64,000 nt of DNA from positions 1 to 64,000 of the forward strand of contig JAFBAS010000127.1 of the NCBI GenBank assembly GCA_019247605.1, in the 5' to 3' direction. A program made the position numbers and the translations under genes. The notes under the pieces were generated by a model. That model ran no database searches and was not told the origin of the DNA. It was given only the letters and a program-made list of their open reading frames with translations. The stretch comes from Hyphomicrobiales bacterium. GTDB taxonomy: Bacteria > Pseudomonadota > Alphaproteobacteria > Rhizobiales > Beijerinckiaceae. Of the stretch, positions 60,924 through 64,000 are shown one piece after another (positions within the stretch are counted from its first letter, which is position 1; each line of letters opens with the position of its first letter).

Positions 60924-61205
60924 ATGCTTCCCATTCATCCAGGCCGCATCCTCAAGCGTGAGCTTGCGGCGCGCGGCCTTTCAGCGAATAGGCTCGCGCT
61001 GGCGCTTCGCGTGCCATCTGGCCGGATCACCGACATCCTGAACGGAAAACGAGGGATTTCTCCTGAAACCGCGCTGCGGCTTGGTCGGTTTTTCGGTAAC
61101 AGTGCTCACTTCTGGCTCAATCTCGAGACGGCTTACGAGCTCGCTGTCGCCGAGCGCGAGATCGGGGCCAGAGTAATGTCCGAAGTCGAGCCGAGCGCCG
61201 CCTGA
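60924..61205 (+). CDS. higA: HigA-family antitoxin
   Basis: 93 residues; ATG 60924 with GGAG upstream. XRE-type helix-turn-helix: IHPGRILKRELAARGLSANR, LALALRVPSGRITDILNGK, and GISPETALRLGRFFGNSAHF with the HigA-typical FWLNLETAYELAVAE. HigA binds its promoter and blocks the HigB RNase toxin. Here the toxin is truncated (preceding entry), so this is an orphan antitoxin that might still act on other loci. Convergent with the sulfotransferase gene, 19 bp apart. Confidence 0.92.
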   Translation: MLPIHPGRILKRELAARGLSANRLALALRVPSGRITDILNGKRGISPETALRLGRFFGNSAHFWLNLETAYELAVAEREIGARVMSEVEPSAA

Positions 61206-61224: not shown

Positions 61225-63135
61225 TCAGCCAGGAGGCTCCGTAAAGTCGCGGAGTTCCGCGATGAGCGGCGACAGAAATTTCCGATAGGCGGCGGCCCGC
61301 CCTTGTGCCGTCTTGTAGATGGGCCGGCGGACTTGGCTCGCGCTTGCGGTCTTCACTTGGCGCTTGGTCTCATGGAAGGCGAGGCAGTTCTCGCTCCAAT
61401 CGAGCCCGCAATGGGCGATGATGCGCCGTGCCTCGCCTTCGAGGTCCGCGATCACGTCCTCGTAGCGCACTTCGAGGATGCGGCCCTCGGGGAGCACAGC
61501 GCGCCAATGCGCCATCAGCTCTGCATATTTCCGATAATGGCGACCGAGCTCGGCAAGGTCGTAAGTGTGGTTCTGCTCGGCCGAGAACAGGCGCGAGAAG
61601 CAGGAAAGGCAGGTATCGAGCGGGTCGCGCATCACATGGACGATGCGGGCGTTCGGAAGCGCGAGATGAATGAGGCCGACGAAGCAGAAATTCGAGGGCA
61701 TCTTGTCCGTGATGCGCAAGGCCGTCGCCGAATGGCGCCGCAAGCGCGTCACATATTCCCGGCCGAGCCGCGTGAAATCGTCTTTCCCAAGCTCGCGCAC
61801 GCCTTCGGGAAACGCGAGCGGCTCGCCATGTTGCGCCTCGAAGCTCGCGACGATATCGCTCATCAAGGCAAGCTCGCCCGCGCCGTGAACCTTTGGGTGA
61901 CTCGCCAGGATCTGCTCGATCAGCGTCGTGCCCGAGCGTGGCATGCCGAGCACGAAGACGGGGATGGGCGAGGCCTCCCCGCCGCCTTCCTTCGCCGAGA
62001 TGAGCTTCGCGTCGAAGGTCTCACGGATGCGATCGAAGAAGGCGAGCGCGGCGGGCTCGTCATAGGTGATCTTCGCCCGCCGCAAGGCGTTGCCTTCGCG
62101 CATATGGGCGAAGGCCTCGCCGAAATTGCCGAGGTCGTCATGGGCCTTGGCGAGCGCGAAATGGAGGCGCATGCGCGCGAGGGCGGGGAGCGCCTCCACG
62201 TCGCGCGCCATCGCCTCCATTTGCGCGACGCACGCATCGTCGGCCTTCACTTTCCGCAAATCCGCGAGGTTCACGAAGACATCCGCCTGCCGCGAATCGA
62301 TGGCGAGCGAGCGCGAATAGGCGTCGTAAGCTTGTGAAAGCTCGCCCGATTGCTTGAAGACATTCCCCATATTGTTGAGAGCGCCGGCGTAATCGGGCTT
62401 GGCGGCAAGCGCGCGCCGATAAAAGGCGAGCGCCTCCTCTCCGCGCCCGAGTTCGTGAAGGGAAAGCCCCATGGCGTTGAGGGTCTCGGGGTCTTCGGGC
62501 AGAGCAGCGACGGCTCTTTGCGCGGCCGCATGCGCTTCCTCGTGCCGGTTCTGGTCGAGCCGAAGGAGCGCCACGTAAGTGAGCGTCTTCGCGTTGTCGG
62601 GAGCGAGCGCGAGGGATCGTTCGAGAAGCTCCGAGGCTTCCTCGTATCGTTCGAGATCCCGCAAAGCGAGCGCGAGGTTGTTGAGCGTAAGCGGGTCGTT
62701 TGGGCTCAACGCAAGCGAGCGGCGGTAAAAGAGTTCCGCTTCCTCGAGCCGGTTGAGCTCGCGCAGCACCGTGCCGAGATTGTTGAAGGCGGCCGCATAG
62801 TCGGGCTTGATGCTGAGCGCTTGCCGATATGCAGCGGCGGCTTCCTCGTGGTTGCCGCGCGCCCGAAGCGCGTTCCCGAGATTGCAATAGGCATCCGCGA
62901 ATGCCGGTTGCAGCGCGACGGCTCGCCTGAACAATACCTCGGCTTCTTCGAGCTCGCCGCGCTCATATTGCACGGAGCCGAGATTGTGGAGGGCATGCGG
63001 ATTGTTGGGCGCAAGCTCGAGCGCGCGTCGCGCAGAGATTTGCGCACCGTCGAGATCGCCGGCGAGCCTCGAAATCTCGGCGAGATCGCCATGGTAATGC
63101 GCGACCGTGCCATCGGCCGCAATCGCGCGCCGCAA
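61225..63135 (-). CDS. TPR-repeat sulfotransferase-family protein (5' end uncertain)
   Basis: 636 residues from TTG 63135. Residues about 1-335 are nine or so tetratricopeptide repeats (for example PHALHNLGSVQYERGELEEA, ADAYCNLGNALRARGNHEEA). A sulfotransferase-like domain follows (about 380-630) with the PAPS-binding loop VFVLGMPRSGTTLIEQIL and the later HVMRDPLDTCLSCFSRLF. TPR-like coding sequence in the same frame continues upstream to about 63330 without any ATG, GTG or TTG, so the true start is not this TTG; a frameshift near 63330 is possible. Likely substrate: peptide, glycan or lipid; unknown. Confidence 0.82.
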   Translation of the reverse strand: MRRAIAADGTVAHYHGDLAEISRLAGDLDGAQISARRALELAPNNPHALHNLGSVQYERGELEEAEVLFRRAVALQPAFADAYCNLGNALRARGNHEEAAAAYRQALSIKPDYAAAFNNLGTVLRELNRLEEAELFYRRSLALSPNDPLTLNNLALALRDLERYEEASELLERSLALAPDNAKTLTYVALLRLDQNRHEEAHAAAQRAVAALPEDPETLNAMGLSLHELGRGEEALAFYRRALAAKPDYAGALNNMGNVFKQSGELSQAYDAYSRSLAIDSRQADVFVNLADLRKVKADDACVAQMEAMARDVEALPALARMRLHFALAKAHDDLGNFGEAFAHMREGNALRRAKITYDEPAALAFFDRIRETFDAKLISAKEGGGEASPIPVFVLGMPRSGTTLIEQILASHPKVHGAGELALMSDIVASFEAQHGEPLAFPEGVRELGKDDFTRLGREYVTRLRRHSATALRITDKMPSNFCFVGLIHLALPNARIVHVMRDPLDTCLSCFSRLFSAEQNHTYDLAELGRHYRKYAELMAHWRAVLPEGRILEVRYEDVIADLEGEARRIIAHCGLDWSENCLAFHETKRQVKTASASQVRRPIYKTAQGRAAAYRKFLSPLIAELRDFTEPPG

Positions 63136-63338: not shown

Positions 63339-63648
63339 CTGAGGCGGTTGGGAGATGGATTCCCCCGCTTATATCGTGTCCGTGGAGCTGGCTATATGGG
63401 CGCCCAACCGACGAAACGGAGTCACGAAATGCCCGAGCTTGACCTTTGCGATCACGTGGCGGGGCACGGCACTCAATTCGTCTGCGATCAAGGCGAGGCG
63501 TTGACGGGTGACTCCGACGAACTCGGGCAGCAACGATGTTCCCGGTCTAATCTGTTTACGTCCCGTTTATATGGGGTCGTGCCCTCGCGAATGGAATGTT
63601 TATGGGCGGCCATTGATATAGAGCCAGCATTCGATTGGGAGATCTTGC
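63339..63648. other. Intergenic region upstream of the kdp micro-ORFs
   Basis: About 310 bp between the sulfotransferase 5' region and the first micro-ORF. Plus-strand frames here (for example from 63348) do not resemble proteins. It should contain the promoter of the kdp operon, and perhaps that of the divergent sulfotransferase. No KdpE site could be named from sequence alone. Confidence 0.5.
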
Positions 63649-63804
63649 GTGCTCGGCATCGTCTTTCTTGCGCTCGGCTTCGTCCTCTACCTGGCCGGTG
63701 CCTGGCATGACGCGCTGCGCAGGGTAGGCCAGGGGTCTTACCGAACCTCGTCCATGCGCCGGGGCGAAATGCGTCAGCTGATGACCGTGAAGACCTTCAG
63801 GTGA
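63649..63804 (+). CDS. Small membrane peptide upstream of kdpF, micro-ORF 1
   Basis: 51 residues from GTG 63649; GGGAGA lies 7-12 bp upstream. The first part (VLGIVFLALGFVLYLAGAWH) is a membrane segment and the tail is basic (RRVGQGSYRTSSMRRGE). Its leader and first codons closely match micro-ORF 2: TTGGGAGA..., then GTGCTCG(G/A)CATC(G/A)TCTT. This implies tandem duplication. It may be a small subunit-like or leader peptide of the Kdp K+-ATPase; unproven. Confidence 0.55.
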   Translation: MLGIVFLALGFVLYLAGAWHDALRRVGQGSYRTSSMRRGEMRQLMTVKTFR

Positions 63805-63849
63805 GCCGAGCGCCATTCGCGTAATTCCAAGTCCGTTTGGGAGACTCTC

Positions 63850-63933
63850 GTGCTCGACATCATCTTCTTGGCGCTCACCTTGGCGCTCTTCCTCGTCGGG
63901 GCCGGCTACGCCGTGCTCTGCGATCGGCTCTGA
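63850..63933 (+). CDS. Small membrane peptide upstream of kdpF, micro-ORF 2
   Basis: 27 residues from GTG 63850 with TTGGGAGA upstream: VLDIIFLALTLALFLVGAGY ending AVLCDRL. One membrane helix with a short polar tail. Similar tiny ORFs ending in CDRL sit before kdpF in many alphaproteobacterial kdp operons, to my knowledge without an assigned role. It ends 10 bp before the kdpF start, so it is probably in the same transcript. Confidence 0.65.
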   Translation: MLDIIFLALTLALFLVGAGYAVLCDRL

Positions 63934-63943
63934 AGACGCCGCC

Positions 63944-64000
63944 ATGCTCGAACCCATCTTCGGCCTCGTGGTCTCGCTGGTGCTCGGCTTCTATCTCCTC
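63944..64000 (+). CDS. kdpF: KdpF, K+-transporting ATPase F subunit (cut by window end)
   Basis: The first 19 codons are visible (MLEPIFGLVVSLVLGFYLL), then the window ends. A single hydrophobic helix right after the CDRL-type micro-ORF fits KdpF, the 25-30 residue peptide that stabilises the KdpFABC potassium pump; kdpA, kdpB and kdpC should follow outside the window. The call rests on position and composition, since the sequence is too short for a firm match. Confidence 0.65.
   Translation, partial: MLEPIFGLVVSLVLGFYLL

Follow-up and report, generated by a model that had tools for sequence, protein, structure and literature searches.

Knowledge of the structure and regulation of the Kdp potassium pump stems mostly from E. 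coli. Amino-acid-sensing leader peptides are encoded by short open reading frames early on an operon mRNA. Among the small proteins of the pump itself, KdpF (PF09604, TIGR02115) is a membrane peptide of about 28 aa with a single helix, usually encoded just before kdpA in the Kdp operon and referred to as a supposed stabiliser of KdpABC in PMC3618439. CydX of an oxidase and AcrZ of an efflux pump are one-helix accessory peptides of membrane complexes too; they belong, however, to other complexes, and the likeness is one of kind. Closer to the peptides described here is WP_191287747.1 from Mycetohabitans (Burkholderiales), a 34-aa protein encoded directly before kdpF, which starts with MD, has one helix and carries a CDKL motif, but differs in its C-terminal RRTPGGRS extension and is covered by no family model. 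Judged by its sequence, it probably belongs to the family that we here call uF, i.e., single-helix peptides of 26–27 aa. The record (L213, 717-821) labels it “potassium ABC transporter ATPase”, a misleading name for a one-helix peptide.

The window analysed in this study comprises the first 64,000 bases of a 76,482-base contig (C57, genome G000) and ends within kdpF (Table 1). The kdpF gene, which in full spans L002 3944-4030, starts 10 nt after the second of two micro-ORFs, hereafter copy 1 and copy 2, and is followed on the same contig by kdpA, kdpB, kdpC, kdpD and kdpE. A first-pass annotation had placed ORFs of 51 and 27 residues before kdpF, and their coordinates were recovered unchanged; both start with GTG. 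Its claim that the ribosome site and the first codons are nearly repeated is likewise borne out: GGGAG lies 6–7 nt before the GTG in both micro-ORFs, 53 of 80 bases around the two starts are identical without gaps, and the local similarity score of 55 was reached by none of 1000 dinucleotide shuffles (maximum 31). The same holds for each of three sister genomes (0 of 1000 shuffles), with scores of 55, 71, 50 and 33 across the four genomes of the genus against shuffle maxima of 31, 36, 30 and 28. Each peptide has one hydrophobic helix, as the annotation had also stated, with Kyte-Doolittle 19-residue maxima of 2.18 (copy 1) and 2.44 (copy 2); when the four copy-1 genes were shuffled, 19–41 of 2000 versions reached the 1.6 level. 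The statement that only the second ORF keeps a CDRL end is correct for the window, but needs qualification for the genus, where copy 1 of two sister genomes retains a remnant (ALRDRL, ALRDRS) in which Cys has become Arg and the stop is gone.

Table 1. Features in and around the kdp leader region (positions in the window).
Feature	Position	Strand	Remarks
Cro/C1-type HTH protein	60924-61205	+	93 aa (HTH_3)
Neighbouring gene	61225-63135	-	636 aa; TPR repeats N-terminal, Sulfotransfer_3 domain C-terminal
KdpE-box-like direct repeat	63555-63571	+	TTTACG-5 bp-TTTATA; 94 nt before copy-1 start
Third TTTAT element	63599-63603	+	spacing constant, whole motif 49 nt; probable -10 region (putative role)
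Copy 1 ribosome site	63637-63641	+	GGGAG; kept in 4/4 genus genomes
Copy 1 micro-ORF (ORF1)	63649-63804	+	GTG start; 51 aa
Copy 1, helix	63649-63726	+	codons 1-26
Copy 1, variable tail	63727-63801	+	
Copy 1, stop	63802-63804	+	
Copy 2 ribosome site	63839-63843	+	GGGAG; kept in 4/4 genus genomes
Copy 2 micro-ORF (ORF2)	63850-63933	+	GTG start; 27 aa; C-terminal CDRL; uF family member
kdpF	63944-64000, continues beyond window end	+	28 aa; PF09604 match over cut-off and TIGR02115

Neither micro-ORF matches PF09604 or TIGR02115, whereas the neighbouring, real kdpF does. uF and kdpF stand side by side as separate genes and differ in their conserved residues, which are YL...RPE[KR]F in KdpF and D3, F14, Y20 and C24 in uF. 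A relationship of the two families by homology was considered and dismissed, as a profile comparison aligned 2 columns only. In Pfam and NCBIfam, no model matches either micro-ORF; a search of NCBIfam with each of the 32 aligned uF sequences gave nothing beyond weak matches at chance level, as did one with distant members, and a comparison of the uF profile with PDB chains yielded nothing convincing (best E 0.26). A uF match was obtained in 180 plasmid records; of the 60 listed, 58 lack any annotated feature at that place, and the remaining two hold, respectively, another ORF, encoded on the opposite strand, and a 52-aa hypothetical protein containing uF. As the gene tables of PLSDB are incomplete, this count is indicative, as is the conclusion that uF is mostly unannotated. 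Among titles, the beginnings of abstracts and some passages, no paper was recognisable as being about a uF-like peptide, and a search for a kdpZ gene returned no paper. The main text of a study on the small proteome of S. meliloti (PMC10117765) contains neither kdpF, kdpA nor potassium; that of a D. radiodurans SEP study (PMC9650054) mentions KdpF once and kdp not otherwise; passages of a D. radiodurans kdp paper (PMC5716572) name kdpF twice and no additional small gene; and the Pro-SMP finder paper (PMC10903887), as far as its accessible text goes, mentions KdpF only.

The first-pass annotation had proposed a survey of such micro-ORFs upstream of kdpF, which reveals a family of wide occurrence. 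We combined 21 kdpF loci from 60 related genomes, defined by matches over the PF09604 cut-off (one extra match in G008, which came without a locus, was left out), with the 80 best-ranking of 578 kdpA loci in named genomes. In 100 of these 101 alphaproteobacterial loci, a hydrophobic ORF of the uF type precedes kdpF, with a distance of -7 to 18 nt between its end and the start of kdpF; it is 26–27 aa long except in two loci, where it has 28 aa and 31 aa, respectively. A uF was called at the true place in 99 of 100 loci versus 0 of 99–100 in each of seven shifted windows. Searching 299 Pseudomonadota genomes with a uF profile gave 36 matches at E <= 1e-3, 35 of which precede a kdpA on their own strand by at most 500 nt (compared by hand), the sole exception being an orphan match in G066. 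This orphan ORF, MIDIFYTAIATGLFIAACAYAWACAKI, is located at C9:84617-84697 (L184, C9:83600-85700) on a contig with no KdpA match; the same genome has another uF before kdpA on C14. Of the 41 alphaproteobacterial genomes with KdpA in this sample, 33 gave a profile match of this kind and 7 more had a uF-like ORF by eye, leaving only G095 without uF. True absence was found in two alphaproteobacterial kdp loci that do have kdpF, namely L190 of G095 and L012 of G025. In L012, a KdpE-box-like repeat stands directly before kdpF. Outside the Alphaproteobacteria, a uF-like ORF was found in about 15 of 37 kdp leaders (by eye, not scored blind), and the profile added two further uF loci in G144. These are two sets of kdp leader and kdpA on contigs C230 and C412 (L186, L187) with a profile match each, reflecting either assembly redundancy or two operons. 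The genomes inspected from two further lineages, Pseudomonas-like (f56) and enteric-like (f61), showed no uF, both lineage names being tentative.

Within the family, four positions are near-invariant: among the aligned members outside the genus, Asp3 is found in 94 of 94, Tyr20 in 93, Phe14 in 91 and Cys24 in 87. A codon model on 96 sequences gave an omega of about 0.3 (lnL -4004.6 vs -4130.8 at omega 1), by which measure uF is under purifying selection. Copy 2 shares the length, the single helix, Asp3, Phe14, Tyr20, Cys24 and the position adjoining kdpF/kdpA; in the four genus genomes, its omega is about 0.13 (2dlnL 21.5).

Since the ORFs are short and lie towards the 5' end of the kdp mRNA, and the uF stop is placed at -7 to 18 nt relative to kdpF, one or both could also be cis-acting leaders, whose translation or stalling sets kdpF expression by coupling or attenuation and whose peptide is immaterial. 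For Caulobacter, parts of PMC8552747 describe RNA-seq reads that fall after kdpF, with Rho implicated, which would suit such a mechanism. However, it is the amino acids of uF that are conserved, beyond the mere frame, and the gene is found elsewhere in the operon in other lineages: the order is kdpF-uF-kdpA in G137 and G248 (profile match in G248 at E 0.007), kdpF-kdpB-uF-kdpA in G293 and kdpB-uF-kdpF-kdpA in Deinococcus. A uF-like ORF before kdpF is also present in Acidithiobacillus and Nonomuraea, with a weaker candidate in Parabacteroides; the records of Lactiplantibacillus, Picosynechococcus and Halobacterium showed none. Conservation across classes and the changing place in the operon set uF apart from amino-acid-sensing leaders as well. 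Moreover, an attenuator would have a terminator between ORF and structural gene; the only terminator-like match on the + strand (0.6 expected, chance level) lies inside kdpF (L002 3976-3988), and between the ORFs there is no such site above chance. A leader function of one or both ORFs thus appears unlikely to us; a pure leader role is disfavoured for uF, and copy 1 may have one. As uF changes its operon position and keeps its amino acids, it is best read as a peptide working in trans; at the level of sequence, this argues for a role of uF in Kdp in trans and not as a leader. Of the two functions suggested by the first-pass annotation, the K+-responsive leader therefore finds no support for the family as a whole, whose gene sits inside the operon in other lineages, while the Kdp helper peptide gains support for the second micro-ORF, with its conserved sequence and locus and its movement in the operon independently of kdpF. 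The earlier observation is confirmed and its interpretation partly supported.

The upstream region offers a framework for the arrangement of the two copies. The direct repeat before copy 1 has a geometry identical to that of the E. coli KdpE half-sites, given as TTTATA-5 bp-TTTACA in PMC3264566, and by this analogy it is a putative KdpE site. A search for TTTAY-N6-TTTAY (first base T or C) plus a third TTTAY element found box and third element in 40 of 100 loci, with 0.0 expected from shuffles and a total length of 49 nt (48 in two). In six relatives with a single uF (L008, L011, L033, L034, L036, L040), the box stands 86–98 nt before the uF start, and farther away in other loci, e.g., 175–198 nt in Rhizobium. 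Across the genus, it precedes the copy-1 start by 92–94 nt and copy 2 by 295–324 nt. Copy 1 thus occupies the slot next to the promoter, which in close relatives belongs to the single copy, and copy 2, with a 10-nt gap as in relatives, the one next to kdpF, a split that is the expectation for a tandem duplication.

Copy 1 is kept in all four genus genomes and found in none of the other 96 loci, and the suspicion that the first micro-ORF might lack conservation is thereby removed. When the uF profile was run on the 450 nt upstream of uF in 100 loci (870 segments), the top three matches were the genus copies (E 0.016, 0.027 and 0.34), with nothing comparable in other loci (next E 3.7); copy 1 of G003 had no match at all. 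A tree of codons 2–26 sets copy 1 apart from both copy 2 and ten outgroups (ultrafast bootstrap 97), consistent with one duplication before the genus radiation. At the near-invariant sites, copy 1 carries Gly instead of Asp3 and Arg instead of Cys24 (Gly in G003) in all four genomes, and the stop codon was lost; the frame therefore runs on into a tail of 23–31 residues, which varies in sequence and has a net charge of +1 to +7, the whole ORF being 47–55 aa long. With Gly3, Arg/Gly24 and the tail, copy 1 is, on DNA similarity and position, homologous to uF and not a canonical member.

As two near-invariant residues are lost, copy 1 may be decaying. It would then be a functionless duplicate, translated at most through inertia of its ribosome site, and the missing stop, the drifting length and tail charge and the weak profile scores all fit this picture. 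Yet start, ribosome site and helix are kept in all four genomes down to a KdpA identity of 85%, the reading frame stays open through indels, and the helix evolves with an omega of about 0.35: on four sequences and 25 codons, lnL was -282.06 vs -286.31 at omega 1 (2dlnL 8.5) on the tree favoured by KdpA identity, and 2dlnL was 5.9 on the other two topologies. A 2dlnL of about 7 for the tail is not relied on, because that codon alignment was derived from the protein alignment. We consider decay of copy 1 improbable on balance, and regard it as the main rival. In each of the four genomes, conservation is highest in the block GGGAG..GTGCTCGGC, so that copy 1 could even be a mere DNA or RNA spacer around a ribosome-standby or regulator-binding element; here, the codon-position pattern and the helix conservation, which reach 25 codons, and the lack of any Rfam match beyond a single one at chance level (E 0.74) make this reading highly improbable. 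AlphaFold2 predicts one helix for copy 1 (residues 2–28; pLDDT about 89 over residues 1–20), with an uncertain tail. Copy 1 is best read as a diverged and probably translated duplicate of uF.

We therefore favour, with fair though far from full confidence, the explanation that copy 2 is an overlooked Kdp accessory peptide of a widespread family and copy 1 its diverged tandem duplicate. uF would be made when KdpE switches on the kdp operon at low K+, would insert into the membrane as one helix whose charged C-terminus faces the cytoplasm, and could, like KdpF, be a small subunit that stabilises or tunes its neighbours KdpA/KdpB (or KdpD); acting like KdpF is meant as an analogy, given that the profile comparison finds no homology between the two. 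Copy 1 would be translated first on the kdp mRNA and might provide a membrane peptide with a role unlike that of copy 2, e.g., as competitor, in dosage or with a new partner. A bolder proposal, which we put forward tentatively and hold to be rather doubtful as it stands, is that most Kdp pumps of Alphaproteobacteria, and many from other classes and phyla, contain a second small membrane subunit or regulator absent in E. coli, and that its tailed duplicate in this genus, copy 1, which lacks Asp3 and Cys24, antagonises the pump or KdpD or regulates one of them in a redirected way.

The degenerate duplicate with its tail is a natural experiment on the importance of individual residues in the peptide. 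The overlooked peptide family of the kdp operon nevertheless outweighs the duplication in interest: if the explanation is true, uF would add an overlooked component to a textbook K+ pump, encoded in nearly every alphaproteobacterial kdp operon examined.
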